Part shown: positions 20,031-50,886 of the stretch, piece after piece | How positions within the stretch are numbered: the first letter of the stretch is position 1 | Layout: each line of letters begins with the position of its first letter | Origin: Rhodoferax koreense | Lineage (GTDB): Bacteria; Pseudomonadota; Gammaproteobacteria; Burkholderiales; Burkholderiaceae_C | Direction: 5' to 3' | NCBI RefSeq assembly: GCF_001955695.1 | Contig: NZ_CP019236.1 | Span: 1,984,001 to 2,048,000, forward strand | DNA: 64,000 bases | Notes under the pieces: generated by a model | What the model saw: only the letters and a program-made list of their open reading frames with translations | What the model was told of the DNA's origin: nothing | The model's database searches: none | Position numbers and translations under genes: made by a program

Positions 20031-20107
20031 GGAGTGGTAGTTCAGTTGGTTAGAATACCGGCCTGTCACGCCGGGGGTCGCGGGTTCGAGTCCCGTCCAC
20101 TCCGCCA
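20031..20107 (+). tRNA. tRNA-Asp (GTC), integration site of the island
   Basis: A 77-base tRNA with encoded CCA. Acceptor GGAGTGG pairs with CCACTCC, anticodon loop CTGTCAC gives GTC, and the T-arm is GGGTTCGAGTCCC. The last 13 bases plus the next base (20095-20108) recur exactly at 37226-37239. The gene is therefore intact and is the left attachment site of the element that follows. Confidence 0.96.
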
Positions 20108-20171
20108 GCCAGTAAGGGTTTGCTGCTATGAAAATAGTAGCAAGCCCTTTTTTTATATTCCAAATTTGGAA
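20095..20171 (+). repeat. Left direct repeat (attL-like): tRNA-Asp end plus terminator
   Basis: The 77 bases from GTCCACTCCGCCAG through the terminator hairpin to TTCCAAATTTGGAA match 37226-37301 at about 69 of 77 positions, with one gap. The first 14 bases are identical. This is what integration into the 3' end of a tRNA gene leaves behind. Confidence 0.82.
20113..20155 (+). terminator. Rho-independent terminator of the tRNA array
   Basis: The stem AAGGGTTTGCTGCTAT / ATAGTAGCAAGCCCTT with a GAAA loop is followed by a run of T. It ends transcription of the Ala-Glu-Asp tRNA operon. The hairpin resembles the intergenic repeat class containing 'ctattttcatagc' in this family of bacteria. Confidence 0.88.
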
Positions 20172-20366
20172 TACTGCCCGCGAAGAGGCATGGTGCGAGG
20201 ACAGCCGGGCAGGGTTTTCTGGCCATGTTAAATAACTCCCGTCGCCTGCAATAAGCTCAATCAGCTACCTCTGCCGCAGCTACGTCGCCGTCCAGAACCC
20301 TATGGTGCCCAGGATAACCAGCAGCTACAGACGTGCATTGCGCCACGCAGCCAGTGCCGTCATTTG

Positions 20367-20960
20367 CTATTGGCGTGCCATGGTCGCCTCGCGCTGGGCA
20401 GCTTGCCAATTAGGGATGTCGATGGCGCCGGCCAGGTACCGCGTCCGGGCGGCGGCAATGGCCCTTTACCAGCTCGGCGCGGGCTGCCACGGCGTTGGTT
20501 TCGGCTTCGACCGTTTTGTAGGCGCGCCAGACCTCGAACGCGATCCGCGACTCGGCCGCCGCGGCATCGGCCTCACGCGCCTGCAGGCCGGCCAACTGCT
20601 CGTGGATGCGGTAGCTGCGGCCGAAACCATCGAACAGCGGGATCGACAGTATCAAGGCCACCAATTGCTCGGGGCTTTGCGAGCCGGTCAGCGCGGTGTT
20701 GGGCCGGGCCGTTGCAGTAGTTGCCATAGGACAGGCCGAGGCCGGCCCAGCAGCGCGAGCTGCTCCACCAGCCCGGCCCCACGTGCGGGCGCGGGGGGGG
20801 CTGGTGCACAGCGCGAGCGAAACGCGCGGTCCAGGGTCAGCGGCTCGCCTGCCGTGCCCAGTTGCGCACCGGCCTGCATAGCGCTCGCGACACCGGCGGG
20901 ATCGGTGCGCTGGCGGTCAGGCTGCTCTCCGGCGAAGCCAGGCGCATCATGCCCCGAGGG
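20367..20960 (-). pseudogene. TolC/NodT-type outer-membrane efflux protein, frameshifted remnant
   Basis: Pieces of one TolC-family protein are readable in order but in different frames. They are a domain start with GEPLTLDRAF, a GLGLSYGNYCNGPAQ stretch, then TGSQSPEQLVALILSIPLFD followed by a long helix (EADAAAAESRIAFEVWRAYK), and finally RTRYLAGAIDIPNWQAAQR before a stop at 20367-20369. Frame changes fall near 20,705 and 20,460. The family forms trimeric outer-membrane channels for RND or ABC exporters. No partner exporter genes remain. Confidence 0.7.
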
Positions 20961-20969
20961 GCGATTTGC

Positions 20970-21221
20970 CTACCGCACCGGCTTGGCCGTGCGGGTCCGT
21001 CGGCGGTCATACACCTGCCGTACTATCCGTTCGCTCGTGTGCAGGGTCGCGTCCAGAACGTCCTCGGCCCCGTCCTCCAACTTGTCGCTGACCCCTTTAG
21101 GTCGCAAGTCTTGCAGCGAAAATCGTTTGAAAGCCACCTCACGTTTTTCGGCTTCGGCAGCGCATGCGTCCATCAATACCTTGAGCACCGATTTCCATCC
21201 TCCCTTGGTGTAGCGATCCAC
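20970..21221 (-). pseudogene. Tyrosine recombinase (integrase), C-terminal remnant
   Basis: About 83 codons match the C-terminus of phage/island integrases: FSLQDLRPKGVSDKLEDG, then DATLHTSERIVRQVYDRRR with the likely catalytic tyrosine in QVYDRRR. The catalytic Arg-His-Arg part and the N-terminal domains are missing. The 5' side is joined to an IS3 orfA fragment at about 21,215-21,225. Its place, under 1 kb from tRNA-Asp, is where an island integrase is expected. Confidence 0.72.
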
Positions 21222-21346
21222 TTATGCAGCACGTTCTCGTGCACGTCCAGATCTCGCGCAGCCTGTGCGACTGATACCCGTCGTTCCTTGACCAGCCTCA
21301 CGGCCTCAAGCTTGAACTCCCGTCTAAATTGCCTTCTCGTTCCCAT
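21215..21346 (-). pseudogene. IS3-family OrfA, N-terminal fragment
   Basis: From ATG 21346 the frame reads MGTRRQFRREFKLEAVRL, then VKERRVSVAQAARDLDV and HENVLHKW, a typical helix-turn-helix start of IS3 OrfA. Homology stops at about 21,215, where the sequence runs straight into the integrase remnant. The DNA-binding helix is kept, but OrfB and the right IS end are gone. The upstream 100 bases (21,347-21,462) hold no gene and may include the left IS end. Confidence 0.75.
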
Positions 21347-21462
21347 ATCCACTCTCCGGTTTCACTTCCCACCTTAACAAGCTGTCCATGAAACCGGCAG
21401 CAGCCCAGAGCCACGTTTCGGCAGTTGGGGTAACCCAGCAAGTGTTTAGGTCAACAACACCT

Positions 21463-21753
21463 CTAGGTACCGGCAACGATTCGAATGTCGCGATCTGCGC
21501 CGTCGCCGAGCGCGGCCAGTGCAGCTTGGTAGGCAGGGCTGTCATGAGCAGCCACAGCCTGTTCCACGGTTTCGAATTCAAGCACCACAGTGCGCTCCAT
21601 CATTCCGAGTTCGTACACCGTTGACGGGGCGCCACGTGCGATGAAGCGGCCTCCGGCTGCTGTGAGAGCGGGGCCCGCGAGCTTGGCATATGCCGCCACC
21701 TTCTCGCTGTCCTTGACTGCGCGGTAAGTAGTGACCCAATAGGCTTTCGACAT
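21463..21753 (-). CDS. DUF1330 family protein
   Basis: A 96-residue ferredoxin-like-fold protein: MSKAYWVTTYRAVKDSEKVAAYAKLAGPAL, then GGRFIARGAP and VVLEFETVEQAVAAHDSPAYQAAL, all typical of DUF1330. The family is a small dimeric alpha/beta barrel related to Dabb/ABM proteins; its function is not established. GGAGAG stands 6 bases before ATG 21753. It is followed at 96 bases by the end of the Fe-type dehydrogenase, transcribed in the same direction, so both could share a transcript. Confidence 0.87.
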   Translation of the reverse strand: MSKAYWVTTYRAVKDSEKVAAYAKLAGPALTAAGGRFIARGAPSTVYELGMMERTVVLEFETVEQAVAAHDSPAYQAALAALGDGADRDIRIVAGT

Positions 21754-21848
21754 ATTTGTCTCTCCGGTCAAAGTTGTGTTGTTGCGCCAAGCATCCCCAC
21801 TGCGGGGCTATCCTGCCGCTGCTTTTCGAAGATGCTCCAGCGGCTTCC

Positions 21849-22988
21849 TTACATGCTGGCTTCGAGCATCGCTTCGTAATCGGTGTCGGATGCGACGCGC
21901 GGATTGGTCCGGTGGCTGTGGTCCTTCAGGGCGCCGCGGATGATGTCGGGGAACATCGCGCGTGTCACGCCGAGTTGGTCCAGGCCGGTCGGCAACCCGA
22001 GCCGCTCGGTCATGGCGCGCACGGCCGTCCCCACCTCGGTCCCGTTGCCAAGGCCCATGGCCTGGGCCAGGCGGTCGAGCTTGTGCTCCTCGCGCACCGA
22101 AGGGGCCGATTGGTTGAACGCGATCACGGCCGGCAGGAAGATCGCGTTCAGCGTGCCGTGGTGCAAGCGTGGATTGATGCCGCCGAGCGAGTGGCTCAGG
22201 CTGTGCACGCACCCGAGTCCTTTCTGGAATGCCAGAGCGCCTTGCATCGACGCACTCATCATGTTCAGCCGCGCACCGCGGTCATCGCCCTGGCGCGTGG
22301 CGCGCTCGATGTGGCGCCAGCCGCGCCACAGCCCGTCGAGCGCGATGCCGTCCGCGGGCGGATTGAAGGCGGGCGACAGGAAGGTTTCGATGCAATGGGC
22401 GATGGCATCCATGCCCGTGGCCGCCGTCAGCGCCGGCGGCAGGCCCATGGTCAGTGCCGGGTCGCAGATCGCGACCCGGGGCACGACGAAGGGCGAGATC
22501 ACGCCGACCTTGCGGCCGTCGTCGAGGATGAGGATCGCACCCCGGCCGACCTCGCTGCCGGTGCCGGCGGTGGTCGGGACAGCGATGACGGGGGCGGTGC
22601 GGGAGGTGATGCGATCGGCCCCGCCTTCGATCACGGCAAAGCTTTGCAGCGGGCCTTCGTGTGTTGCGCAGACGGCCACGCCTTTGGCGAGGTCGATGGA
22701 CGAGCCGCCGCCCACGGCGATGATGCCATCGCAATCGCCCTTGAGGTACGCGCCCACCGCCTCGCGCACGGCGGCCTCGTTCGGGTTTGGCGGTGTGCCG
22801 TCGTAGAGCGCCACGGTGCCTGCCGCCCCAAGCGCATCCAGCACGGTGTCGACGATGCCGGCCGCCTTGACGCCGCGGTCCGTCACGATGAGCGGGCGGC
22901 GGATGCCGACGCGTTCGCACGTTGCTCCGAGCAGGCCGATGGCGCCGAACTCGAACTGGATCTGGGTGACGTAGTTGATGAGGGCCAT
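21849..22988 (-). CDS. Iron-containing alcohol dehydrogenase
   Basis: A 379-residue group III dehydrogenase. It has the NAD(P)-binding GGGSSID (about 95-101), the TTAGTGSEV motif, and metal ligands in GMDAIAHCIE, HSLSHSLGGI and NPRLHHG. The family oxidises primary alcohols or reduces aldehydes and keto groups, and includes 4-hydroxybutyrate dehydrogenase and maleylacetate reductase; the substrate here is unknown. The start MALINYVTQIQFEFGAIG at 22988 has GGAG upstream. It ends the minus-strand pair read toward the island's left end. Confidence 0.9.
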   Translation of the reverse strand: MALINYVTQIQFEFGAIGLLGATCERVGIRRPLIVTDRGVKAAGIVDTVLDALGAAGTVALYDGTPPNPNEAAVREAVGAYLKGDCDGIIAVGGGSSIDLAKGVAVCATHEGPLQSFAVIEGGADRITSRTAPVIAVPTTAGTGSEVGRGAILILDDGRKVGVISPFVVPRVAICDPALTMGLPPALTAATGMDAIAHCIETFLSPAFNPPADGIALDGLWRGWRHIERATRQGDDRGARLNMMSASMQGALAFQKGLGCVHSLSHSLGGINPRLHHGTLNAIFLPAVIAFNQSAPSVREEHKLDRLAQAMGLGNGTEVGTAVRAMTERLGLPTGLDQLGVTRAMFPDIIRGALKDHSHRTNPRVASDTDYEAMLEASM

Positions 22989-22999
22989 GGCGATGAGCT

Positions 23000-23040
23000 C
23001 CGAAATGAGCAAATGTTATAGCACAAGCGAACCGCGATCA
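23000..23040 (-). promoter_or_regulatory. Possible promoter of the Fe-type dehydrogenase
   Basis: On the minus strand TTGATC and TATAAC, 15 bases apart, stand just upstream of the gene. The string TATAACAT occurs again upstream of the LysR gene (24,048-24,060), so the two may share control. Spacing is short, so this is tentative. Confidence 0.35.
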
Positions 23041-23107
23041 ACGTCTCTGGTGGCTTCAAGTCCCTTTCGCCAAGGCCTGGCGAGGCAACGAACGTTCGAT
23101 CCGAGGC

Positions 23108-24034
23108 TCAGGACCGGCGATGCATCAGTTCGTCGAACAGCAGTTTGGCGGCGGGCGAAACCTGCGCTCCCTTGCGCGTGACGAGCTCATAGGGCTCGCT
23201 GCGCGACGACAGCGCCAGCGGCAGGATGCACGACATCTGCTGGTGCGCGAAGAACTGCGCGACCTCGATCGACACCAAGGCCACGAAGGACGGATTGGCC
23301 TGCAGCAGCGCCAGCGTCGCAAAGGCGGAGGTCGTCTCGAGCAGGTGCTGCGGAAAGCGGATCCCGCAGTCGCGGAACTCGGCTTCGAGCAGGAGCCGCA
23401 TCGGCATGTTCGCGCGGTACACCACCCATCGGTACGGCGCCAGCTGTTGCAGGGTGAGCTTCTTCGCGCGCCGAAGGGGGTGGCCGATGTTGGCGATCAC
23501 CGCGAGCGTCTCATCCTGGAGTTTCACGCTCTCGTAGACCTGCGGCGCCTGCGGGATGGATGTGCGGCAGATCGCCAGGTCGAGCCGGCCGGCGTCGAGT
23601 TGGGCCAGCAGGGTGGCGCTGGTGTCCTCGACGATCTCCACGGACAACTCCGGCTGCCGCGCAACGAGCGCGGAGATGGCATCCGTGAGCAGCGGCACCG
23701 CGCCCATGATGACCCCGGCGCTCACCCGCCCGCCCTGGCCACGCAAGATGCCGACGAGTTCGTCGCGCAGGTGCGCCAGGTCCGTCTGGATGAGCCGCGC
23801 ATAGCGGATCACGCAATGGCCGACGGCATTGGGCTCGAGGCCTCGGTTGGTGCGAATGAACAGTGGCGTGCCGAAGGTTGTCTCGATCTCCTGCAGCGAC
23901 TTGCTCGCGCCCGGCTGCGTCAGGGCGACCTGTTGCGAGGCCTTCAGCAGCGAGCCGTGCTCGCCCAGCGCAACGACGAGTCGTAGCTGCTTGAGGTGGA
24001 GCCTCGAGATGATGGAGTGGAGCGGTGGGGTCAT
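23108..24034 (-). CDS. LysR-family transcriptional regulator
   Basis: A 308-residue regulator. The N-terminal helix-turn-helix (LKQLRLVVALGEHGSLLKAS, then QVALTQPGASKSLQEIE, about 13-60) is followed by a substrate-binding domain (about 95-300) starting GRVSAGVIMGAVPLLTD. It is divergent from the ABC-transporter operon and lies upstream of the Fe-type dehydrogenase, so it likely controls one or both. The ligand is unknown; the family usually responds to a substrate or intermediate of the neighbouring pathway. Confidence 0.92.
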   Translation of the reverse strand: MTPPLHSIISRLHLKQLRLVVALGEHGSLLKASQQVALTQPGASKSLQEIETTFGTPLFIRTNRGLEPNAVGHCVIRYARLIQTDLAHLRDELVGILRGQGGRVSAGVIMGAVPLLTDAISALVARQPELSVEIVEDTSATLLAQLDAGRLDLAICRTSIPQAPQVYESVKLQDETLAVIANIGHPLRRAKKLTLQQLAPYRWVVYRANMPMRLLLEAEFRDCGIRFPQHLLETTSAFATLALLQANPSFVALVSIEVAQFFAHQQMSCILPLALSSRSEPYELVTRKGAQVSPAAKLLFDELMHRRS

Positions 24035-24469
24035 GGCTTGGATTGAGGGAATGTTATACCGGAATCACATCTTTTCAGTTGTCGGGGCGGCAAATAATGC
24101 AACACTGTCACCAGTCGACCGGCAACTGCCCATGCGCGGCCCCGCAAAAACCAAGCGGTGGACCAAGGGGCGGTTCTGCGTCGATTCATAAAGTCCGGTG
24201 GAGACAAAGGCCGGTACAAAAGGGGGAGACATCCGTGGAAACATTGACTGGCCATCCTGGGTACGGCAGCGATCAGCATGCCGGGCGTGACGCAAGCTAT
24301 TGCGCAGACGCCTGTTCATTGGCCGAAGCCGGCACAACTGGCGCCCTCTGGCGGCCAGCGCAAGCGTGAAAGACCTGCAGCGCATGCAAGCGACGCCGGC
24401 GGCAATATGCTGGTCTTCACCGATCGCGGGGCCGGCCGGCCGGGCGCTTTTCGCAGTGGGGCAGCGGTA
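24035..24469 (+). other. Divergent control region with leader, no clear gene
   Basis: This stretch between the LysR start and the permease probably holds both promoters and the LysR binding sites (GGTATAACATTCC reading toward lysR). An open frame from ATG 24278 runs into the permease. Its first part reads like a stray signal peptide (AILGTAAISMPGVTQAIAQTP) preceded by a stop, possibly the relic of a lost secreted protein. I see no complete gene. Confidence 0.45.
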
Positions 24470-25243
24470 ATGCGGCACTGGGTCTCGTCGTCGTTGTGGT
24501 TCTGCGCTCCTTTCGCCGTCCTGCTGGTCCTGTGGGCGGTCCTGGTCCCGTACTTCGACGTCAACCCCCGCTTGTTTCCGCATCTCGACGCGGTGGTACA
24601 GGCGGGTCTCGATGGCATCAAGGATGGCACCCTCATCCAGCACATCGGTGCAAGCCTTCTGCGCGTCACGGTCGGCACGCTGCTCGCCCTTGTGTTCGCC
24701 ATTCCCCTGGGCATCGCCATGGGCGTGAGCCCGGCGGTTTCCGGCTTTCTCACACCCCCGTTCAGGTTCTTTTCGGTGCTGGCGGGCATCGCATGGATAC
24801 CGGTCGCATCGCTGTGGTTCGGCTACGGCTTCGGCGCCATCACCTTCGTGATCTTCAATGCCGTGTTCTTCATCGTGACCTACAACACACTGCTCGGCGT
24901 CTCGACCATTCCCCTGCAGGTGCGCCACGCAGCTGCATCGCTGGGTGCGGGGCGATGGGCCATGCTGACCGAAGTCCTGCTGCCGGGTGCGCTTCCCAAT
25001 ATCGTCACCGGCATTCGCACAGGACTGGGCTTCGCCTGGCGCGGGCTGATCGCCGCCGAGATGATCGCCACCAACGTGGGCCTGGGCTACATGCTGTTCG
25101 TGGCGCGCGATTTCTACAAGACAGAGGTCATCGTGCTGGGCATGATCGTCATCGGCGTGTTGTGGCTGCTGCTGGACCGTTTGCTGCTGGCGCCGATCGA
25201 ACGCGCGACCAGCGAGCGCTGGGGCATGGTGCAGCGCGCATGA
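24470..25243 (+). CDS. ABC transporter permease (SsuC/TauC type)
   Basis: A 257-residue inner-membrane permease with about six helices. It carries the binding-protein-dependent transport signature that docks with the ATPase, in AASLGAGRWAMLTEVLLPGALP. It is like SsuC/TauC and the permeases of NMT1/THI5-type importers. Possible starts are ATG 24470 (MRHWVSSSLWF) or ATG 24407; the former fits the family. It overlaps the next permease as ATGA (25240-25243). Confidence 0.88.
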   Translation: MRHWVSSSLWFCAPFAVLLVLWAVLVPYFDVNPRLFPHLDAVVQAGLDGIKDGTLIQHIGASLLRVTVGTLLALVFAIPLGIAMGVSPAVSGFLTPPFRFFSVLAGIAWIPVASLWFGYGFGAITFVIFNAVFFIVTYNTLLGVSTIPLQVRHAAASLGAGRWAMLTEVLLPGALPNIVTGIRTGLGFAWRGLIAAEMIATNVGLGYMLFVARDFYKTEVIVLGMIVIGVLWLLLDRLLLAPIERATSERWGMVQRA

Positions 25244-26049
25244 AAACGTTTCTCCTCAGGGCCTGGAGCCGCTACCTGCGCCTGACGACACGATGGCCGT
25301 CGGTCGGCACCATCGTGCCGTTTCTTCCCTTGATCGCCGCCTGGTGGATCATCACCGCGCTGCATGTATTTCCGCCTGCGTTCCTGCCGGGGCCGGCGGA
25401 TGTCGTGCGTTCGTTCGGCACACTCGTCTACACGGGCGTCTTGCCGGATTACCTGCAGGACAGCATCGTGCGGCTCGTCGTCGGTTCCTTCTGGGGCATC
25501 ATGCTGGGCATCCCTCTCGGATTGCTGGTGGGCCTGAGCCAGCGGGCGCACAAGGTGCTGTGGCCGTTGCTGATGTTCTTCCAGGCCATCGGAGACATCG
25601 CCTGGTTGCCCATCCTGGTGATCTGGTTCGGCTACGGCCTGACGACCATGACCGTTGTCATCGTCTACACGGTCATCTTCCCGGTCATCCTGAACACGGT
25701 GCTGGGCGTGCGTTCCATCCCGATCAACATGCATCGCGCCGCGCTGAGCCTGGGTGCGTCGCGCACCCGCATGCTCTGGGAGGTAGTGCTGCCGGGGGCG
25801 TTGCCCAACATCATGACCGGCCTGCGCAATGGCCTGGGTTATGGATGGCGTGCCCTGATCGCGACCGAGATCATCGTCGGCACCAGCGGCATCGGTTTCC
25901 TGATGTTCGATGCGCGCCGCGCCGGCTCGGTCGTCGAGATCCTGCTGGGCATGATCATCCTCGGGACTCTTTGGTACATCGTAGACAGTTGGATCCTCGC
26001 TCCTATCGAGCGGGCGACTGGACAGCGCTGGGGATTGGTGACGAAGTGA
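25240..26049 (+). CDS. ABC transporter permease, second subunit
   Basis: A 269-residue SsuC/TauC-type permease with six helices and the coupling motif in AALSLGASRTRMLWEVVLPGALP. It is a paralogue of the preceding permease, so the channel is likely a heterodimer. This differs from many SsuBC systems, which use one permease. ATG overlaps the stop of the first permease, and its own stop overlaps the GTG start of the ATPase. Confidence 0.9.
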   Translation: MKTFLLRAWSRYLRLTTRWPSVGTIVPFLPLIAAWWIITALHVFPPAFLPGPADVVRSFGTLVYTGVLPDYLQDSIVRLVVGSFWGIMLGIPLGLLVGLSQRAHKVLWPLLMFFQAIGDIAWLPILVIWFGYGLTTMTVVIVYTVIFPVILNTVLGVRSIPINMHRAALSLGASRTRMLWEVVLPGALPNIMTGLRNGLGYGWRALIATEIIVGTSGIGFLMFDARRAGSVVEILLGMIILGTLWYIVDSWILAPIERATGQRWGLVTK

Positions 26050-26804
26050 AAAGCCTGACTATCCGTAATCTTTCGAAGACCTATTTCGACGTCCACGCGG
26101 GCGCGAACGTGACCGCGGTGCGCGACATGTCGCTGGAGGTGCCGGCCGGCGAGTTCGTGTCCATCGTCGGCCCGTCCGGGTGCGGCAAGACCACGCTGCT
26201 CAACATGATCGCGGGCTTCATTCCCCACACTGAAGGGGAAATCACCGTCGGCGGCCAGCCGGTGAAAGGGCCTGGACCCGACCGCGGCGTGGTGTTCCAG
26301 TCATGGGCGCTGTTTCCCTGGCGCACCGTTCTCGACAACGTCGCCTTCGGCCCCAAGATGCGCGGCGTCGGCCGGGCCGAACGCGAGAAGATCGCGCACG
26401 ACTACCTGGCGCTCGCCAAGCTGTCCCACGCGGCAGGGCGTTATCCCAACGAGCTGTCGGGCGGCATGCAGCAGCGCGTCGGCGTGGTGCGTGCGCTGGC
26501 CAACGAGCCGGACGTGCTGCTGATGGACGAACCCTTCGCCAGCGTGGATGCGCAGACGCGCATGACCTTGCAGGAGGAGCTGACCCGGATCTGGGAGCAG
26601 AAGCGGCCCACGGTCATCTTCATCACCCACGACGTCGCGGAAGCCGTGTTCCTGGGCAACCGGGTCGTGGCCCTGTCCAAGGGGCGGGTGCTGGAGGAGA
26701 TCGCCGTCGACCTGCCACGGCCCCGGGTTTGGGACGAGCTGAACGAGGACGGCCGGTTCAAGGCCCTGTGCGGGCGCGTCCTTCAACTCGTGCGGTCGGC
26801 CTGA
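26046..26804 (+). CDS. ABC transporter ATP-binding protein (SsuB/TauB type)
   Basis: A 252-residue ATPase: Walker A GPSGCGKTT (about 44-52), Q-loop VVFQSWALFPW, signature LSGGMQQRVGVVRAL, Walker B VLLMDEPFASVD, and switch His in FITHDVAEA. It energises the two permeases. It starts with GTG 26046 within the stop of the previous gene (GTGA), so translation is coupled. Confidence 0.93.
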   Translation: MKSLTIRNLSKTYFDVHAGANVTAVRDMSLEVPAGEFVSIVGPSGCGKTTLLNMIAGFIPHTEGEITVGGQPVKGPGPDRGVVFQSWALFPWRTVLDNVAFGPKMRGVGRAEREKIAHDYLALAKLSHAAGRYPNELSGGMQQRVGVVRALANEPDVLLMDEPFASVDAQTRMTLQEELTRIWEQKRPTVIFITHDVAEAVFLGNRVVALSKGRVLEEIAVDLPRPRVWDELNEDGRFKALCGRVLQLVRSA

Positions 26805-26807
26805 GCC

Positions 26808-27125
26808 ATGCTGCGTGACGTGCTCCGGTCGCGGAAGTTCCACATCCTGCTGGCGATGGCGGTCTTCTATGTCGCCTGGCAGCTTTGGCTGACGATCGCC
26901 GCGCCGAGCAAGATCACGGGCCTTGCGGGCGAGTCGGAAAAGGTGAACGTACTGGTCACGCTGGCCTTTGCGCCGGAACGCTTTCACTTTCAGCGCTTTC
27001 AGGCCTACGGCAGGGTATCCGGTACGGAACAGAACGCCCTTGAAGTTCGCGGCGTGAAACGCGCGGACCTGACGGCCGTTGCCCGACCTTACTGGGTGAA
27101 GCGTGTTGAACCATTACAACCATGA
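26808..27125 (+). CDS. Small single-pass membrane protein in the ABC operon
   Basis: A 105-residue protein I cannot assign. Residues 1-10 are basic, 11-32 form one membrane helix (FHILLAMAVFYVAWQLWLTI), and the rest (about 70 residues) should be periplasmic, with a strand-rich pattern (VNVLVTLAFAPERFHFQRFQ). It starts 3 bases after the ATPase stop and ends just before the binding-protein gene, so it is part of the operon. It could help dock the binding protein or be a partial lipoprotein-like accessory. The codon pattern supports coding. Confidence 0.7.
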   Translation: MLRDVLRSRKFHILLAMAVFYVAWQLWLTIAAPSKITGLAGESEKVNVLVTLAFAPERFHFQRFQAYGRVSGTEQNALEVRGVKRADLTAVARPYWVKRVEPLQP

Positions 27126-27132
27126 GGAGACC

Positions 27133-28197
27133 ATGATGAAACGAATCGCGCTGTTGTTCTGTTCCCTGCTGTTCCTGCCGTTGCTGGCACTGGCGCAGTC
27201 CACGAATCTCGTCAAGGTCAAGGTCGGCATGGTGGCCGCCGTCGACATGCTGGCCTTGCCGATTGCTGTCGAGCGCGGCTTCTTTGAGAAATACGGGCTC
27301 GACGTGACGATCGCGCGCCCCTACGCCACCGGCGTCGATGCCCTCAACGCGCTGCAGGCGGGCGAGACCGACATGGTCCAGGCCGGCGTTCCGGCCATCG
27401 GCGCCATCCTGCGCGGCATGGACCTGGTGTTCCTGGGCAACTTCAGCGGCAACGCCACCAAGGCTGGGTCCGATGCCACGCTCGCGCTGATCGCAAACAG
27501 CGGTACCGGCATCGTCAAGGGTGACCTGAAGAGCCTCAAGGGCAAGAAGATCGCGACCTCGTTCGGCACGATCAACCACCTCTACATTCTCGGCCTGCTC
27601 GAGAAAGGCGGCCTGACGCCGGCCGATGTGACGCTGGTCAACACCCCACCGCCGGAGATGACCGTGGCCTTGCTGGCCAAGGGCGTGGATGCGTTCGTGG
27701 CCTGGGACCCGGCGCCGGTCATGGCCATGAAGGACGTGCCGGGCGCGATCGAGGTGATCCGCGGCGGCGATGTGATCTCCTACCTCGGCTTCAACATCGC
27801 GCTGCGGCCCTGGGTGGAGAAGAACGGCGCGACGATCGAGAAATTCCTGGCGGGCGTGTCCGAGGCCGACCAGTGGATGCGCAAGAATCCCAAGCAGGCC
27901 GCCGCCATCGGTACGCGCTGGATTCCCGGGCTGAAGATGGACGTTGCGGAAGCCGCGATGCAGAACAACATCCAGCAGGTGGACCGCCGCATTTCCGCGC
28001 ACAACTACCGTGCGCTGTGGAAGGCGCAGGACACACTGCAGCGGCTGGGCGTGATCAAGACCGTGTTCGACGTGAACAAACACATCGAGCCCAAGTTCAT
28101 TCTCAACGTGATGCAGACCTACCCAGCGCTGTTTTCCGACCTGCAGCCCATTCCCGCGGATGTGGCGATCAAACCCGGTTTCGTGTTCAAGCCCTGA
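27133..28197 (+). CDS. ABC transporter substrate-binding protein (NMT1/THI5-like)
   Basis: A 354-residue periplasmic protein with signal peptide ([22 protein letters not shown]). The binding-protein fold begins [23 protein letters not shown], then [18 protein letters not shown] and [17 protein letters not shown], which match NMT1/THI5-like and SsuA-like proteins. Such proteins bind sulfonates, thiamine precursors, nitrate or aromatic acids; the ligand here is unknown. GAGGAG is 5 bases before ATG 27133. It completes the importer. Confidence 0.9.
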
Positions 28198-28216
28198 TCC
28201 GGCTGGAGGCGCAGTC

Positions 28217-29146: not shown

Positions 29147-29163
29147 GGGCGGGTCCGATCGAA

Positions 29164-30159: not shown

Positions 30160-30175
30160 GAGAATGTCCTGCGGG

Positions 30176-31162
30176 TCAGTCGGCGTGGATGTTGCCGGCC
30201 TTGATGACTTCGGCCCATTTGGCGGTTTCTGTCTTCACGAACGCGCCGAAGTCCTTGGCGCTGGAGCCGACAGGCTGTACGCCCATCTCTTCGAAGCGTT
30301 TGGCCACGGCCGGACTGGCCACCACGGCGCGGGTCTCCGCCTCCAGGCGATCCAGCACGGCACGGGGCGTGCCGGCGGGGGCGAACAGGCCGTTCCATTC
30401 GTACACCTCGAAGCCCTTCATGCCCGACTCCGACATCGTGGGCACCTGGGCCCAGGCATCCTGCCGCTTCGCCGAGGTGATGGCCAAGGCCTTGAGCTTG
30501 CCACCCTTGACGAAGGTGCCGCTGGCGGTCGTGGCGCTGAACATCAGGTCCAGCTGGCCGCCGATGAGGTCCGTCAGTGCGGGCGCGCCGCCCTTGTAAG
30601 GCACATGGGTCATTTGCAGCTTCTGGCTTTGGGCGAACAGTTCGGCCGCCAGGTGCTGGGCGCCGCCGTTGCCTGCGGAGGCGAAGGCCAGCTTGCCGGG
30701 CTGGGCCGCCGCCGCCTTGACTACGTCGGCCACGCTCGAAAAGCGCGAGTTGGCCGGCACGACCATCAGCAGCGGGACCTGCATGATTTGGGACACCGGC
30801 GCCAGTTCTTTTTCCGGGTTGTAAGAGAGCTTGGGGTACAGCGTCGGGTTGACGGTGTAGGAAGTCGCGTCCAGCAGCAGCGTGTAGCCATCGGCGGGCG
30901 CCTTGGCGACAAAGGCTGCGCCGATGGTGCCGCTGGCACCGGGCCGGTTGTCGACGAGGATCTGTTGCTTGAGCCGGCCGCCGAGTTCCTGAGCCAGGAT
31001 GCGTGCCGTGTTGTCGGCCGCGCCACCGGCCGGGTACGGCACGACGAGCCGGATCGGCTTGTCGGGCCAGTCGGCCATGGCAGCGCCGGTCAAGGAAAGC
31101 AGCGCTGCTGCGAGGACGGGGCCGACGAGGGCGGCCATCTTGGCCGGGCGTGTATTTTTCAT
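30176..31162 (-). CDS. Bug-family periplasmic solute-binding protein (2)
   Basis: A 328-residue Bug protein with signal peptide to about residue 31 (LTGAAMADWPDKPIRLVVPYP), then AGGAADNTARILAQELGG, DNRPGASGTIG and HVPYKGGAPALTDLIGGQ. ATG 31162 has a good Shine-Dalgarno (AGGAG). It differs clearly from its neighbour Bug protein, so the two likely have different ligands. It follows the cyclase-family gene by 25 bases. Confidence 0.92.
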   Translation of the reverse strand: MKNTRPAKMAALVGPVLAAALLSLTGAAMADWPDKPIRLVVPYPAGGAADNTARILAQELGGRLKQQILVDNRPGASGTIGAAFVAKAPADGYTLLLDATSYTVNPTLYPKLSYNPEKELAPVSQIMQVPLLMVVPANSRFSSVADVVKAAAAQPGKLAFASAGNGGAQHLAAELFAQSQKLQMTHVPYKGGAPALTDLIGGQLDLMFSATTASGTFVKGGKLKALAITSAKRQDAWAQVPTMSESGMKGFEVYEWNGLFAPAGTPRAVLDRLEAETRAVVASPAVAKRFEEMGVQPVGSSAKDFGAFVKTETAKWAEVIKAGNIHAD

Positions 31163-31187
31163 TGAAAAGTCTCCTGTGTTATTGAGA

Positions 31188-32252
31188 TCAAACGGTCGCA
31201 ATGGGGGTCGCGGGTGAACCGACCGCACCCGGCAGGCGCAGCGGTGGTGCGGTGAGCAGGAAGCGGTGGCGCCCGTTGGCGCGCAGCCAGCGCGCCAACG
31301 GCGTGAGCAGCCACAGCTCGCCGAGGTGGATGCCGTTCTTGAACAGGCAGTGTTCGTGCAGCGGCAGGCGGGGCCGACGCATGGGCGTCGGCGTCATGAG
31401 CTTGGGCACCACCAGCTCCACCGCGGGGTTGTCGGCCAGCAGGCAGGCCAGCCGCACGTCGACGATCCAGTTCAGCAGTTTCGCGTCGTGGCCGTCCAGT
31501 CCGCTGCCGGTGGCGTGCAGCTGCTGCAGGTCGGGTTGGCGGTTCATGGCCAGCAGCGTGTCCGCGAAACCGGTGTGCAAGCAGACCATGTCCCCCGCCT
31601 CGATCTCAACGCCGTCCGTGTCGAGGATGCGCATGAGCTCGTCATAGCCCACAGCATGCCGGCGGCGACCGACGTGGTGTTCCAGATCGACCATCACCCC
31701 CCGGCCTTGGGCACCATGTTCCGCCAGATTCTGGATGCCCAAAGCGTCGGCGCGTGGCCCCGGAAAGCGGGCCCAGTCGGCCACGGCCTGTGGGTCGGCC
31801 GAGGCTGCATGGATGTCACGCCCGGCGCGGTAACCGTTATAGAACACCGCCTCGGCTTCGCCGTCGCCATCGGCATCGAAACGCGAGCCCATGTGCGCCA
31901 GGCTGTCCCACTGGGTCGAATACTGGGTGTTCATCAGCAGCACCTCGTCGCACACCACATCGGTCTGCTCGGGGTCTTCCGTGGCGTAGGACCAGCAGTA
32001 GCCCTGCACGCCGGCGCTATTGCCGTCCCGCAGCGTGGCGAACATTTGCGCCGGCATGCGGCGTGGGTTCATCGTCATGCCGCCCGGCACGTCCAGCGGT
32101 AGCGAAAGGCAGAATGTCTTTCCCTCGCGCACTTCGGCGATGCCCTGCAGCACCTTGTCTGCGTCGACCAGGTTCATGCGACCGCGTTGGTCGTCGATGC
32201 CGAACTCCCCCCAGTGGCTGCCCGGCGGCGCGTTTTTCCAGCGTTGTGACAT
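31188..32252 (-). CDS. Cyclase-family hydrolase (COG1878-like)
   Basis: A 354-residue protein of the putative cyclase/kynurenine-formamidase-like family: WGEFGIDDQRGRMNLVDADKV, then the metal-site region NTQYSTQWDSLAH and the later DMVCLHTGFADTLL, and LPLHEHCLFKNGIHLGELW. Family members hydrolyse amide or lactone bonds, for example isatin or formylkynurenine. In the usual HxGTHxDxxxH motif the third position here is Gln (STQWD), as in one large subfamily. It lies between a dehydrogenase and two Bug genes. Confidence 0.83.
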   Translation of the reverse strand: MSQRWKNAPPGSHWGEFGIDDQRGRMNLVDADKVLQGIAEVREGKTFCLSLPLDVPGGMTMNPRRMPAQMFATLRDGNSAGVQGYCWSYATEDPEQTDVVCDEVLLMNTQYSTQWDSLAHMGSRFDADGDGEAEAVFYNGYRAGRDIHAASADPQAVADWARFPGPRADALGIQNLAEHGAQGRGVMVDLEHHVGRRRHAVGYDELMRILDTDGVEIEAGDMVCLHTGFADTLLAMNRQPDLQQLHATGSGLDGHDAKLLNWIVDVRLACLLADNPAVELVVPKLMTPTPMRRPRLPLHEHCLFKNGIHLGELWLLTPLARWLRANGRHRFLLTAPPLRLPGAVGSPATPIATV

Positions 32253-32259
32253 GGTGACC

Positions 32260-33186
32260 TCACGCAGTGACCGCTCGGCGCGCCAGGCTCGCCAGTGCGT
32301 TGCGTGCCGCGAAGACACCCATGTTGACGTACGCCCCGTTGGTCACCGCGCCGATGTGGGGGCTCAGCACGATGCCGGGCTGACCCTGGAAAGGGTGTCC
32401 GGGTTGCATCGGCTCCACTGCGAAGCTGTCCAAGCCGGCGCCCATGACCTGGCCCGACTGCACCGCAGCCAGGAGGGCCGCTTCATCGATCAAGCCACCA
32501 CGCGCCGTATTGACCACGATGACGCCGGGTTTGCAGGTGGCCAGCGTGGCGTCGTTGAGCATGTGCCGGTTCTCGTCGGTGAGCGGGCAATGCAGAGAAA
32601 TGACATCGGCCTCGCGCAACAGGTTCGGCATGTCCGTGGTGGTGATGTAGTCGGGCAGGCTCTGGGCGTAGGGGTCGAAACCCAGCACCCGCATGCCCAG
32701 GCCATGGGCCATGCGCGCGAAGCGCTGGCCGATGGCCCCCAGGCCGACCACCCCCACCGTCAGTCCGTCCAACTCCACGCTCATGTGGCCGGCCTTGTCC
32801 CAATGGCCCGCGTGCATGCGCGCGTCGACGCGGCTGACCGACTTAGCGCAGGCCATGAGCAAGGCCAGGGCTTGCTCGGCCACGGCCGCTGCATTAGCGC
32901 CAGCGGCGGCGACGACATCGATCCCGCGCTCTTTGGCCGCGGCCTTGTCGATGTTGTCGGTGCCGCTGCCGTGTTTGGACAGCACCTTCATGGCCGGCGC
33001 CGCGTCCATCGCTGCTGCGCCGATCTTGCCGTAGCGCACGATCATGGCCACAGGGTTGTGTTCACGGCAGAGCGCGACGATGTGTTCTTCCTGCGGGTTC
33101 TTGCCGGTGAAGACCAGTGCATACTCCTTGAGCAATTCCAGCGCCTGGGGCGCCAGCGCGTCGCTGCTCACGAGGATGGTGCTCAC
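32260..33186 (-). CDS. D-2-hydroxyacid dehydrogenase (NAD-binding)
   Basis: A 308-residue enzyme. Rossmann motif GLGAIGQRFARMAHGLGM (about 148-165), then CPLTDENRHMLND, NTARGGLIDEAAL (catalytic Arg), and the C-terminal SPHIGAVT with the catalytic His. The family interconverts 2-keto and D-2-hydroxy acids. It starts at GTG 33186 inside the stop of the upstream aldolase gene (GTGA overlap), so it is coupled to it. Confidence 0.92.
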   Translation of the reverse strand: MSTILVSSDALAPQALELLKEYALVFTGKNPQEEHIVALCREHNPVAMIVRYGKIGAAAMDAAPAMKVLSKHGSGTDNIDKAAAKERGIDVVAAAGANAAAVAEQALALLMACAKSVSRVDARMHAGHWDKAGHMSVELDGLTVGVVGLGAIGQRFARMAHGLGMRVLGFDPYAQSLPDYITTTDMPNLLREADVISLHCPLTDENRHMLNDATLATCKPGVIVVNTARGGLIDEAALLAAVQSGQVMGAGLDSFAVEPMQPGHPFQGQPGIVLSPHIGAVTNGAYVNMGVFAARNALASLARRAVTA

Positions 33187-33869
33187 AGTGTTTCCCCTTC
33201 CTTGAGAGCGCCCGCAGCGCGCAAAGCCGAGTCCAGCCATTTGGCGGCGGTGTCGCCGGTCTTGATGGCAGCGATGCGAGCCGCCTCGTCGCGCACCTTC
33301 TTTTTCGCCATGGGCAACAGGCCTTCGATCTTGTCGCGTTCGACGACGACGACGCCGTCGGCATCGCCGATGACGAAATCGCCTGAGTGCACGGTAACGC
33401 CACCGACCGACACCGGATGACCGATGCGGCCGGGCACCAGCTTCGTGGGGCCGTTGGGATTCGTGCCGGCGCAGAATACCGGGTAGTCCATTTCGTGGAT
33501 CTCCAGACTATCTCGCGCGGCCCCGTCGATTACCACCCCTGCAATGCCCAACTGCTTGCAAGCAGTCATCATGATGGTGCCCATCAGTGCGGCGCTGAGA
33601 TCGCCCTTGCCATCGATGACCAGCACGTCGCCGGGCTTGGCCAGCGAGATGGCGGCGTGGATCATGAGGTTGTCGCCAGGGCGCACTTCCACAGTCAGCG
33701 CCGTGCCGGCCAGCTTCATGCGCGGCCGCAGGGCCCGGATGCGGCCGTCCAGGCCTCCGCGACGGCCGGCCACGTCGGCCAGGATGGCCGGCTGGAACTC
33801 GGCGGCCTGCTGCACGATGTGTGCGGGAACGCGTTCGAAGTCACGGATGATGTCGGGCAGTGTGGACAT
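33183..33869 (-). CDS. RraA-family aldolase (HMG/oxaloacetate aldolase-like)
   Basis: A 228-residue RraA-like protein: RGGLDGRIRALRPRMKLAGT, PGDNLMIHAAISLAKPGDVLVIDG, GTIMMTACKQLGIAGVVIDGAARD, then NPNGPTKLVPGRIGHPVSVGG. The Gly-rich substrate loop and the Arg-Asp pair (GAARD) of 4-hydroxy-4-methyl-2-oxoglutarate aldolase are present. Such enzymes split hydroxy-keto-dicarboxylates to pyruvate and a second acid. It overlaps the dehydrogenase gene and follows a Bug gene. Confidence 0.9.
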   Translation of the reverse strand: MSTLPDIIRDFERVPAHIVQQAAEFQPAILADVAGRRGGLDGRIRALRPRMKLAGTALTVEVRPGDNLMIHAAISLAKPGDVLVIDGKGDLSAALMGTIMMTACKQLGIAGVVIDGAARDSLEIHEMDYPVFCAGTNPNGPTKLVPGRIGHPVSVGGVTVHSGDFVIGDADGVVVVERDKIEGLLPMAKKKVRDEAARIAAIKTGDTAAKWLDSALRAAGALKEGETL

Positions 33870-33961
33870 GGGGGTACCTTTCGAAGGAGGAGGGATGTGG
33901 GGCGGCCGGCCTGGCGCAATGCCGGGCCTGTGAAGCTGGATTTGGTGATGGTGAGCCGCGC

Positions 33962-34951
33962 TCAGTCGATCTTGGCGCCGGATTCCTTGACGACCGCCGC
34001 CCAGCGTGTGGTCTCGGTGCGAATAAGGGTCGCGAAGTGCTCGGGTGTGCCGCCCAACACCTCGCTGCCCTGCTCGGCTAGTTTCTGGCGGACATCGGGT
34101 GCCTGCAGCGCCTTGTTGAAGGCGGCGTTCAGGGTGCCAACGATGTCCTTCGGCAGACCGGCCGGGCCGGCGATGCCGAACCACGTGACGGCCTCGAAAC
34201 CTTTGAAGCCCGACTCGGCCACGGTGGGGACTTCGGGCATGTCCGGCGAACGCTTGACCGAGGTAACCACGACGCCGCGCATCTTTCCGTTCTTGATGTG
34301 GCCGATGAGGGTCGGCACGGACGAGATGTACATCTGGACTTGTCCGCCGATCAGATCCGTGATCCCCTGTGCGGCGCCTTTGTAGGGCACATGCGTAAAA
34401 CGCACACTGGCGATCTTCTGCAGTTGTTCCATGGCAAGGTGCGCGACCGTGCCGTTGCCGGAGCTGGCGAAGTTGAGGAACTCGGGCTTCGCCTTGGCCG
34501 CGGCCACGATGTCGGCGAGCGTCTTGTAGGGCGAGGTGTTCGACACGGCGAGCACCAGCGGCGCACTGGCCACCAAGCCGACCGGTGTGAGATCCTTTTC
34601 CACGTCGTATGGCATCTTGGCGTAAAGGCTCGGGTTGATGGCCAGGTTGCTTGTTTGCCCTAGAACCAGGGTGTAGCCGTCCGCCTTAGCCTTCGCAGCA
34701 GCATCGACACCCAGGTTGCCACCGGAGCCCGGCTTGTTGTCGATGATGATGGTCCAGCCCTGCTGCGTGGTCACCTTGTTGGCAACCTCGCGCGCGATCA
34801 TGTCCGGTGCGCCGCCTGCCGGAAACGGCACCACGAGTCGGATCGCGCGGGATGGATAGGCGCCTTGTGCGCTGGCCGAACAGGCTGCGGCTGCGCCGAC
34901 AACAAGCAGGGCTGCCATGGTCGCAGCGCCACGCACGGTGGGCAATCTCAT
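33962..34951 (-). CDS. Bug-family periplasmic solute-binding protein (3)
   Basis: A 329-residue Bug protein: signal peptide to about residue 28 (ACSASAQGAYPSRAIRLVVP), FPAGGAPDMIAREVANKV, DNKPGSGGNLGVDAAAKA and HVPYKGAAQGITDLIGGQ. It is the first structural gene after the LysR regulator and the third Bug protein of the run. One of the three probably feeds the aldolase pathway. Confidence 0.92.
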   Translation of the reverse strand: MRLPTVRGAATMAALLVVGAAAACSASAQGAYPSRAIRLVVPFPAGGAPDMIAREVANKVTTQQGWTIIIDNKPGSGGNLGVDAAAKAKADGYTLVLGQTSNLAINPSLYAKMPYDVEKDLTPVGLVASAPLVLAVSNTSPYKTLADIVAAAKAKPEFLNFASSGNGTVAHLAMEQLQKIASVRFTHVPYKGAAQGITDLIGGQVQMYISSVPTLIGHIKNGKMRGVVVTSVKRSPDMPEVPTVAESGFKGFEAVTWFGIAGPAGLPKDIVGTLNAAFNKALQAPDVRQKLAEQGSEVLGGTPEHFATLIRTETTRWAAVVKESGAKID

Positions 34952-35076
34952 TTGTTGTCTCCTCAGTCCATCTACGGCAGCTAGATCGCTCTCGCTGGAC
35001 TCAGGGGAAAGTATTCACGCCCGCGCCGAAAACATCCAATCGATTATTCGTTTCAACCCATTGGAAAAACTTTTGA

Positions 35077-35976
35077 TCAGGAAGGGTGGCGCCTCGCTTG
35101 GGTTGCGAGCAATGCCACAAGACGATCAGCAGCAGGAGAAAGATAGCCGTCTCTTCTCGAGCTGACCACCATCCGCCGTCGCATGGTCGCTCCGCGCACC
35201 ACCACTTCGCGCAACTGGGCGCCGCTGCTGCCCGCCCGCAGATGGAGGCGGGAGATGAAGCTCAGCAAGCCGGTTTCCTCGATCAAGGTGGGAAGCATCA
35301 GCAGCATGGTGCTTTCCACCTGGACTTCGGGACGCGGCAGGTGATGACGGTCGAATGTCTGGTCCAGCCAGTCCCGGATGGGGGCACCCGGTGGCTGCAA
35401 CACCCAGGGGTAGCCGACCAAGTCGCGTAGCGTGAGCGCCGGCCGCTCGAAAAGAGGGTGGGACGCCGCAGCGGCAACAACGATCTGGTCTTCTGCAAGC
35501 AATTGGGAGCTCAGTTCCTGATCGTCGAAGCTTTCGGTGCCCACCATCAGGTCGATGTCCCCACTCGTCAACTTTGGCCGTAGCACGTCTCCAAGCGCCA
35601 CTGTTGTCTTCAGCTTCACGCCAGGTGCTTCTCTGAGCAGAGTCCGGGCTGCTGGTGGGAGTAGAAATTGGGCCGCTGTTGGCACGATGCCCAGCTTGAC
35701 CTCGCCGGTCATGCCCTGACTAAGATCGCGAATCTCGCGGTGGGCGTTTTCGAGGTCCAACCTCGCGCGCTGTGCCCACTTGAGCAAAGTCTTACCAGCG
35801 GCCGTCAGCCTGATGCCGCGGCCAGTGCGCTCAATGAGGTTGGCGCCGTACGTCTCTTCCAAGCGACGAACTGCGCCGGTGAGCGCGGGCTGCGAGCGAT
35901 GCAAACGCTCAGTAGCACGGCCAATATGTTCAAGCTCGGCAATTACCTCGAAATAGTGAAGGTCGCGTAAATCCAC
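35077..35976 (-). CDS. LysR-family transcriptional regulator
   Basis: A 299-residue regulator starting at GTG 35976: MDLRDLHYFEVIAELEHIGR, then HRSQPALTGAVRRLEE in the helix-turn-helix (about 1-60). The effector domain starts GEVKLGIVPTAAQFLLP. It lies upstream of and on the same strand as the Bug-aldolase-dehydrogenase run (125-base gap) and likely controls it. The bases GATTTACG repeat just at and before the start. Confidence 0.91.
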   Translation of the reverse strand: MDLRDLHYFEVIAELEHIGRATERLHRSQPALTGAVRRLEETYGANLIERTGRGIRLTAAGKTLLKWAQRARLDLENAHREIRDLSQGMTGEVKLGIVPTAAQFLLPPAARTLLREAPGVKLKTTVALGDVLRPKLTSGDIDLMVGTESFDDQELSSQLLAEDQIVVAAAASHPLFERPALTLRDLVGYPWVLQPPGAPIRDWLDQTFDRHHLPRPEVQVESTMLLMLPTLIEETGLLSFISRLHLRAGSSGAQLREVVVRGATMRRRMVVSSRRDGYLSPAADRLVALLATQARRHPS

Positions 35977-36064
35977 GTAAATCCCTTTAGACGGTCCGAC
36001 GCATTCTGAATCGCCCCCGGTGTTGAACTGACCTCCAGAAGTTGAACGGTCACGATGCCGCCGT

Positions 36065-36400
36065 TCAGGCGGTGCTTCTCAACCGGTACTCCACCGGGCT
36101 GAGCCCTTGCAGCCCGAGCTTGATGCGCTCGTGGTTGTAGTAGTGGACGTGATCATGCACGCCCGCTTCAAGCGCATCAATGCTGGCGGGCCTTTCGAGA
36201 TGAAAATACTCGACCTTCAGGGCGCCAAGAAAGCTCTCAATTGCCGAGTTGTCGAAGCAGTTGCATTTGCGGCTCATGCTTTGCTTGACTCCGCGTCGCG
36301 TGAGCATCGCACGGTAGGGCTGCATCTTGTAGTGCCAGCCTTGGTCGGAGTGCACGATCAGGTCATCTTGCACGACGCGGCAGCTTGTGGGCAAGGCATC
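36065..36400 (-). pseudogene. IS3-family OrfB, C-terminal fragment (IS150-like)
   Basis: The frame reads LIVHSDQGWHYKMQPYRAML, then RKCNCFDNSAIESFLGALK and HYYNHERIKLGLQGLSPVEY, to a stop at 36065. It is the end of an IS3-type transposase with the second D (HSD) and the E (IESF) of the DDE triad. The first D and the N-terminal part are missing. The DNA beyond the stop (about 36,014-36,050: tgaactgacctcc...) resembles an IS end. Confidence 0.8.
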
Positions 36401-36479
36401 GATGCGACTCGCTGGATCTCGATTAACTCGCTGTTCCACAGCAACTTGGTCGGCACCGCGAACAATGCCGTGCTCACAA

Positions 36480-37055
36480 TGGCGCTCGAGGTCGTCATCC
36501 AGCTCAGTCGCGTGGTGTACTTGTACCGATCAATGGCACGCGACGATAGTGCGTTGACGATGCGGATGAAGATCATGCAGGCCCGCGTGCACTTCGGTTA
36601 CAGGCGAGTGCACGTGATGCTCAAGCGCGAGGGCTTCAAAGACAATCACAAGCGGGTGTACCGCCTGTACCGGGAGGAAGGCCTGTCACTGCGCCTCAAG
36701 CGGCCCAGGCGCAGCAAGGCGGCACGACTGCGCCAACCCAAGACCGCGGCGCAGCGAGTTAATCAGATATGGAGCATGGATTTCGTGGCTGACAACCTGT
36801 TTGACGGCCGCTAGCTGCGCATGGTCACGGTCGTGGACTGCTGCTCGCGCGAGAGCCTGGCCATTCATGCCGGACAAAGCCTGAAAGGCGAAGACGTGGT
36901 GCGGGTTTTGAACTTGATCGTGTGCGAGCGCGGCCTGCCGCAGACCATCAAGACGGATAACGGCAGTGAGTTCATCAGCAAGGTCATGGACAGGTGGGCC
37001 TATGAGCACGGCGTCGAACTGGACTTCAGCATAACGAGGTTAGACCCCACAGTGC
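36480..37055 (+). pseudogene. IS3-family OrfB (IS407-like) with internal stop, truncated
   Basis: It reads MRMKIMQARVHFGYRRVHVM, KRVYRLYREEGLSLRLKRPR and IWSMDFVADNLFDGR, then a TAG at about 36,812, and continues LRMVTVVDCCSRESLAIHAG and IKTDNGSEFISKVMDRWAYE. The third acidic residue (E) and everything after VELDFS are gone. It belongs to a different IS group from the neighbouring minus-strand fragment, and the two abut near 36,430. Confidence 0.82.
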
Positions 37056-37083
37056 GCTAGACTGGACAACGCCCCAGGAGTTC

Positions 37084-37119
37084 GCCCGGCGTGCGGGGTT
37101 TAAACCCCGCACGCCGGGC
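37084..37119. repeat. Perfect 36-bp palindrome
   Basis: Bases 37084-37119 read the same on both strands. The left half is GCCCGGCGTGCGGGGTTT and the right half its exact complement, centred on TTTAAA. There is no T-run after it, so it is not a standard terminator. It lies in a 170-base gene-free stretch between the broken transposase and the right repeat; the remaining bases of that stretch (37,120-37,225) hold nothing I recognise. Confidence 0.9.
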
Positions 37120-37225
37120 AACAAAAGAGCCGGAAATACTAACTTCTGATCGGTAGGGAAATTGGGTCAGGGTCATTGACGGACTTCGCGAACTTCAGGT
37201 TGGTACGGCTGGGAGGGGCAGGTCA

Positions 37226-37301
37226 GTCCACTCCGCCAGACATAAGGGTTTGCTCCTATGAAAATGGCAGCAAACCCTTTTTTTATGGTCCAAATTTGGA
37301 A
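37226..37301 (+). repeat. Right direct repeat (attR-like)
   Basis: It starts GTCCACTCCGCCAG, identical to 20095-20108, then repeats the tRNA-Asp terminator and the CCAAATTTGG palindrome with about 90% identity. It marks the right end of the island. Beyond it the sequence is host-like. Confidence 0.82.
37240..37286 (+). terminator. Duplicate of the tRNA-Asp terminator
   Basis: The stem AAGGGTTTGCT.../...AGCAAACCCTT with a T-run is the second copy of the hairpin at 20113-20155. It differs by a few compensating or G-T changes, so it should still fold. Confidence 0.75.
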
Positions 37302-49492: not shown

Positions 49493-49502
49493 AGGGGCAC
49501 CG

Positions 49503-50878: not shown

Positions 50879-50886
50879 GTGCGCGC

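Follow-up and report, generated by a model that had tools for sequence, protein, structure and literature searches.

We analyzed a 64,000-nucleotide stretch of the Rhodoferax koreense genome (contig NZ_CP019236.1, positions 1,984,001 to 2,048,000; hereafter the window) that carries a transfer RNA (tRNA) gene for aspartate, tRNA-Asp, the 3' end of which recurs downstream. Sequence comparisons make it likely that this tRNA-Asp is a phage attachment site that was used serially, with two related phages integrating in turn and later decaying. The two repeats in the window are probably two tRNA-side (attL-type) phage ends, or arms, and not the left (attL) and right (attR) attachment sites of a single island. 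On this reading, the region is a grounded prophage site that was hit serially and invaded by insertion sequences (IS), a legible fossil of an already known type and not a new system.

Self-comparison of the window aligned positions 20095-20171 with 37226-37301 at 69 of 77 columns (7 mismatches, 1 gap, expect value (E) 2e-21), bearing out the first-pass annotation of this DNA, which had reported that the tRNA-Asp 3' end and its terminator recur 17.1 kb downstream. The repeat begins with an exact run of 14 nt, 13 of which belong to the tRNA-Asp 3' end. A similarity search (E <= 0.001) of the 5.9-Mb genome returned these two copies, and the exact 13-mer occurred twice in forward and never in reverse orientation (0 and 1 for a reversed-pattern control). 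A dispersed repeat as the source of the hairpin was rejected, as the genome has just two copies at up to 3 mismatches. Folding predicts an uninterrupted hairpin of 16 pairs with a T tract in the left arm (-25.1 kcal/mol) and one of 15 pairs with one mismatched position in the right arm (-20.1 kcal/mol). A scan for consensus terminators reported the left arm and not the right one, yet the right arm folds at an energy such that we do not press its description as 'decayed'. No other terminator-like site was found behind the tRNA-Asp row, and the two hairpin states fit, but do not prove, a role for the left arm as the terminator of this row.

The phage identity of the site would rest on the arms and on an integrase relic that retains the C-terminal end of the protein. 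A search with the family profile (hmmsearch) recovered the relic with E 3.5e-39 (the next frame in the window had E 6). It has the conserved C-terminal residues of the family and is 57-72% identical over about 80 residues to the members listed; on its own, it matched no Pfam, PHROG or NCBIfam family. The first-pass annotation had placed the relic next to the tRNA gene. The relic is indeed present (20970-21221) but not directly adjacent, because the relic of an outer-membrane efflux gene intervenes. A full-length relative was located in another genus of the host's bacterial family (G022), and a search with this integrase identified 5 of 349 genomes of the bacterial family at E <= 1e-40. At all five loci, the integrase is located immediately 3' of tRNA-Asp and has its C-terminus facing the tRNA, the same arrangement as in the window. 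Three full-length members, of which two match PHROG 1 (integrase), were aligned, and this alignment served as the query to collect 36 family loci (L134-L169), 9 in genome contigs and 27 in viral contigs, which are partly non-independent (L135 and L168 share one contig, and L134, L137 and L140 repeat genomes G188, G269 and G308). The records include Hydrogenophaga pseudoflava, Bordetella hinzii and viral contigs, and we infer that the integrase family of the relic is phage-borne. No recombinase gene able to excise the region was found. The first-pass proposal of a tRNA-targeted integration that later lost mobility is supported. Broken recombinase and broken attachment site, both traits of grounded prophages, are present at the site. 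No phage structural or lysis genes were identified in the open reading frames (ORFs) scanned with Pfam or with PHROGs, the latter covering four interior ORFs besides the relic and six to the right; only a transposase matched PHROGs among the interior ORFs scanned.

Comparison of the family loci gives the phage attachment site (attP) a recognizable layout: 45-52 nt of the tRNA-Asp 3' half, a hairpin, TTTGGAA or TTCCAAA motifs 40-85 nt after the CCA and then, usually, the integrase gene. In 25 of the 36 loci, a tRNA-Asp 3' end is located no more than 2.5 kb behind the integrase. The tRNA part is partial in 20 of these 25 (45-52 nt, attP or displaced, in calls that tolerate mismatches in the last 17 nt) and a whole tRNA in 5. 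Either motif occurs 40-85 nt after the CCA in 24 of the 25 (the exception is L145), the first 55 nt fold as a hairpin of at least 8 pairs in 24 (the exception is L146), and the arm separates the tRNA end from the integrase in 23. The arm on one viral contig (L148) shares the hairpin type of the window, with 48/66 and 49/65 identical positions. Behind tRNA-Asp, the motif was present within 120 nt in 3 of 48 distinct 3' regions (fetched relatives plus the window) and absent in 45; the three are the window, G022, which has an intact integrase, and G037, which has an integrase 40% identical over 367 residues (L208:1220-2302). Among 399 genomes of the bacterial family, 13 carry the pattern of tRNA end, N(40-70) and TTTGGAA (zero for the reversed-pattern control), and only the window's genome (G000) has two such sites. 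A family integrase lies within 1.5 kb in 8 of the 13 loci and in none of the other 5, two of which are near contig ends (G418, G403) and three of which lack one in longer stretches as well (G227, G178, G095). In G227, a 2.3-kb remnant (L202:3658-6012) with a motif arm, a far junction and no integrase found has the appearance of a nearly erased prophage.

The far junctions look different. All four genomes with both junctions (G022, G308, G227 and G037) have an attR in which 48-50 nt match the tRNA exactly and the motif is missing at 40-85 nt; in G037, whose junctions fall on separate contigs, the far junction contains a single TTTGGAA at 23 nt. The window site has no attR of this type, as the genome has two copies of the 13-mer and the right one combines 13 nt of tRNA with the motif. 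Its signature is that of the tRNA side and not of a far junction, and we therefore interpret the right repeat as another left end. The window thus has a pair of tRNA-side arms in the same orientation at one tRNA, as expected of tandem prophages. In view of this motif, the earlier interpretation of the repeats as both preserved attachment sites of one integration is not supported. A single integration would make them the attL and attR of one 17-kb island in a host whose own terminator happened to resemble the phage arm. It would account for a tRNA 3' end that recurs as a direct repeat at either border and for the integrase relic enclosed between the copies. In addition, a genome of another genus (G009) does have, behind its tRNA-Asp, a hairpin related to the left arm (48/64), and the relic query found no integrase at that locus. 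We consider it quite unlikely, however, given a TTTGGAA in the right copy that is unseen at 40-85 nt in attR (0/4), the near confinement of the motif to tRNA-Asp regions with an integrase (two of the three positives, the window being the third) and a tRNA part of 13 nt instead of 48-50.

The similarity of the two arms raises the question of whether one phage could have sufficed, with a single arm copied when the tRNA end was duplicated, in tandem or through an IS, and the two arms then diverging. The window arms agree at 56 of 64 positions, more than with any further arm whose comparison spans most of its length (48/66 and 49/65 for L148; 48/64 and 47/67 for G009; rows with fewer than 25 aligned columns are omitted from this ranking), and several IS pieces lie at the site. 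Yet the arms of two different family phages (L134 and L137) are just as similar (57/64). Furthermore, the sequence shared to the left of the arm is 13 nt long, and the self-comparison contained no other repeat between the two ends. A duplication is, for these reasons, unlikely.

The short tRNA part of the right repeat has a plausible cause in the IS debris that precedes it. Positions 37176-37225 match the ends of IS1477-like elements on three plasmids at 83-92% (the name is taken from the annotation of one plasmid record), while a fourth record matched a different part. The three plasmid copies have in common the terminal ..CAGGTCA, after which their flanks differ, two of them agreeing with the window one base further. 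Hence, the sequence pattern indicates that the IS end most likely set the left edge of the right repeat at 37226, via insertion or adjacent deletion. With its edge at an IS end, the 14-base run would be a remnant and not the core of an attachment site. The same IS debris contains a perfect 36-bp palindrome (37084-37119) in the self-comparison.

A parallel case, which we count in favor of serial integration, was identified in a single-contig genome (G079), in which a motif-free terminator follows tRNA-Asp and a motif-bearing displaced tRNA end lies 11.8 kb downstream (L200:7616-19900), together with an integrase remnant 43% identical. The gene beside the displaced arm has integrase domains that we take to be of the P4 type. 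By analogy, an element of another family could have displaced the arm in the window, the left arm and integrase relic then stemming from a later, third event. The displaced copy in G079 retains 14 nt of the tRNA, compared to 13 nt in the window, and starts at nearly the same base. However, the Pfam Phage_integrase family was unmatched in the ORFs scanned between the repeats and the 13-nt edge already coincides with an IS end, making this scenario very improbable.

Several observations weigh against serial integration by two phages of the family. In 2 of the 25 loci (L159 and L169), the tRNA end lies between the arm and the integrase, and 11 of the 36 family loci are without a tRNA-Asp end. Four of the latter (L143, L144, L149 and L153) have just 9-1542 bp of contig behind the integrase, six (L135, L136, L142, L147, L164 and L168) show no such end, and in L161 the integrase is beside the 3' end of a different tRNA, flanked by TTTGGAAT motifs (near 11077). 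The closest relatives of the relic, L136 (72%, examined within 2.5 kb) and L149 (71%, on a contig that stops 9 bp past the integrase), are in this group, whereas L146 (69%) and L148 (65%) do have the tRNA-Asp end. Hairpins without the motif stand behind tRNA-Asp in G009 and G373. In other genera, similar ones follow tRNA-Ser and tRNA-Thr, in the latter case also where only a cut-off end is present. The hairpin alone is therefore not phage-specific, and the family phages probably carry hairpins of the host type. Nor was a second integrase relic of the family found in the window, including to the right of 37301, or a PHROG match in six ORFs tested there; the older phage is thus read from its arm alone, and we rejected the idea that its prophage body lies to the right of 37301. 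No intermediate genome was found. Separately, the cut-off ends in five loci of other genera (L078, L079, L080, L084 and L087), in which the 3' end of tRNA-Thr(CGT) is followed by a similar hairpin, suggest a parallel element family at tRNA-Thr.

Serial integration, which we favor, would have proceeded as follows. The comparison of loci shows that family phages carry in attP 45-52 nt from the 3' half of tRNA-Asp and, after it, a hairpin and TTTGGAA motifs of their own. The compared junctions show that integration rebuilds the tRNA and that the phage arm then stands where the host terminator had been. A first phage would have left its arm after tRNA-Asp, and a second, related phage would have entered the restored tRNA and displaced this arm. 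The newer prophage may then have decayed, leaving the last ~80 codons of its integrase at the junction with an IS3 piece, and plasmid-type catabolic modules bounded by IS pieces may have come to fill the space. The IS1477-like element could have trimmed the displaced tRNA piece to its present 13 nt, and the older prophage, of which the arm is left, could have been lost. Of this decay, the end state is seen in the sequence, and the causes and their order are reconstructed.

Comparison with relatives did not recover an empty site. The expectation that relatives without the island would have a single 77-bp unit joining the flanks was not realized, as all seven same-genus genomes have other terminators. 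Five of these (G003-G007) share a different gene block behind tRNA-Asp, with a counterpart in the window's genome at C1:4.24 Mb; its first gene is, presumably, methyltransferase-like. One G001 contig contains the ortholog of the LigB-type gene in the window, and there the resemblance to the window begins at 39781. Neither comparison places the original right border of the site. We also fetched 18 stretches from relatives (15 with the whole tRNA-Asp; matches listed down to 60-80 bits). Searched for the right-flank genes and the cargo, which had been expected at the same tRNA elsewhere, they gave only weak matches, with at most 42% identity among those listed. The first-pass annotation had named as damaging to its island the presence of the same genes there without flanking repeats, which was not encountered in the 18 stretches, and the presence of the repeat at many unrelated loci, which applies in part: the hairpin type is also found behind tRNA-Thr and tRNA-Ser in other genera. 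A second tandem tRNA-Asp as the source of the right copy, suggested by three fetched loci with two Ala-Glu-Asp sets, was discarded in view of the phage motif in the right copy. To the right of the site, positions 37818-38717 hold a PEP-CTERM protein gene region, and four further similar loci are in the genome.

Table 1. Features of the tRNA-Asp site in window coordinates.
Feature	Position	Strand	Basis and remarks
tRNA-Asp (gtc), integration target	20031..20107	+	ARAGORN; last in tRNA-Ala/Glu/Asp row behind gltX (Pfam); row also in relatives
Putative left phage arm, tRNA-side (attL/attP) type	20108..20171	+	16-pair hairpin and T tract; TTCCAAA/TTTGGAA at 50/57 nt after CCA
Outer-membrane efflux protein relic, between left arm and integrase relic	20410..20916	-	Pfam OEP, E 1.7e-7 on 20410-20724; frame open to 20916
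Integrase relic, C-terminal ~80 residues of phage integrase	20970..21221	-	57-72% identity to family members listed
IS3-family orfA fragment	21216..21415	-	Pfam HTH_Tnp_1; abuts integrase relic
Cargo module A	21463..28939	mixed	DUF1330 protein, Fe-alcohol dehydrogenase, LysR (all -); ABC permease, ABC ATPase, NMT1-type binding protein, short-chain dehydrogenase (all +); Pfam
Cargo module B	29155..35977	-	Three TctC, cyclase, 2-hydroxyacid dehydrogenase, RraA-like aldolase, LysR
IS3-family orfB fragment	36007..36362	-	88% to IS on Acidovorax plasmid
Second IS3-family transposase fragment	about 36551..37030	+	
IS1477-like element, outer end (..CAGGTCA)	37176..37225	-	Final base directly precedes right repeat
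Right repeat, tRNA-side type	37226..37301	+	13 nt of tRNA-Asp 3' end and second, diverged arm; TTTGGAA 56 nt after CCA

The interior of the site is catabolic (modules A and B; Table 1), in agreement with the metabolic cargo described initially, and the IS debris noted at both ends was confirmed as IS3-type pieces on the left and right. These pieces flank the cargo on both sides and cover different genes, and no matching terminal repeats indicative of a composite transposon were found. The alcohol dehydrogenase gene of module A is 82% identical to a gene on a Burkholderia anthina plasmid. Module B is colinear in one piece with positions 48687-55526 of a conjugative Comamonas antarctica plasmid (NZ_CP054842.1), which has the seven genes in the same order at 79% identity and IS3 genes on both sides. 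The plasmid differs in the flanking ISs, with one 69-bp IS match (74%) beyond 35977 in the stretch compared, and module A is unmatched in the 24.8-kb plasmid stretch. We infer that the cargo probably arrived later than the phage, by way of IS elements and plasmids. Judging by its gene families, its substrates may be organic or hydroxy acids. A relative of the RraA-type gene is present in 79 of 379 genomes at E <= 1e-70, counted regardless of position relative to tRNA-Asp, and the host genome has a second one (G000:C1:4884339-4885238), 71% identical to that of the island and with one TGA within the searched stretch. In module A, neighboring ABC transporter genes share a repeat (24815-25231 and 25624-26040, 65% identical), and the ATPase gene seems fused to a permease.

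When a tRNA end recurs as a direct repeat, the copies are usually interpreted as the borders of a single island. In this case, the sequence that follows the repeat suggests two left ends, and both the borders of the island and its history change accordingly. The arm signature (a hairpin and TTTGGAA motifs at a set distance) provides a cheap test that can be applied to other tRNA islands and may flag sites that have lost the phage and retained the arm, as in the 5 of 13 motif loci without a family integrase within 1.5 kb. More tentatively, and on balance with some doubt, the arms with TTTGGAA could be viewed as integration fossils whose number behind tRNA-Asp counts past infections. The family would then replace the terminator of the host tRNA row at every integration, an arm could outlast its prophage, and the tRNA-Ala/Glu/Asp row of the host may now rely on a terminator of viral origin. 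No description of the tRNA-Asp site or of the arm was found in the open-licence papers searched, which is weak evidence of absence.

Several published cases resemble this history. In Mycobacterium abscessus T36, two different phages (prophiT36-2a/b) integrated in turn at tRNA-Thr and formed a central attR/attL-type junction (PMC9934374). Serial integration of different phages at one tRNA is common to both cases, but each T36 prophage was detected by polymerase chain reaction in the culture supernatant, whereas the window has two arms and one integrase end (PMC9934374). Grounded prophages, as described, are immobilized via a broken recombinase or attachment site and then accumulate IS elements and acquired metabolic genes (PMC6379469). 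All of these features are seen at the window site, which differs in that the scanned ORFs yielded no phage structural gene and its phage identity comes from the integrase relic and arms (PMC6379469). Similarly, serial insertions at one RNA gene produced rows of direct repeats with metabolic cargo, some now fixed, in the tandem ssrA islands of Dehalococcoides (PMC3146451). Serial insertion, direct repeats and metabolic cargo are shared with the window, yet the ssrA islands use a serine recombinase at the tmRNA gene, in contrast to an IS-broken site of a phage integrase family at tRNA-Asp (PMC3146451). Finally, tandem copies of test plasmids in Pseudomonas putida were explained by integration at a bacterial attachment site (attB) restored through the first integration (PMC12884075). 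This is the same step that we propose for the window site, observed with laboratory plasmids and not at a decayed natural site (PMC12884075).

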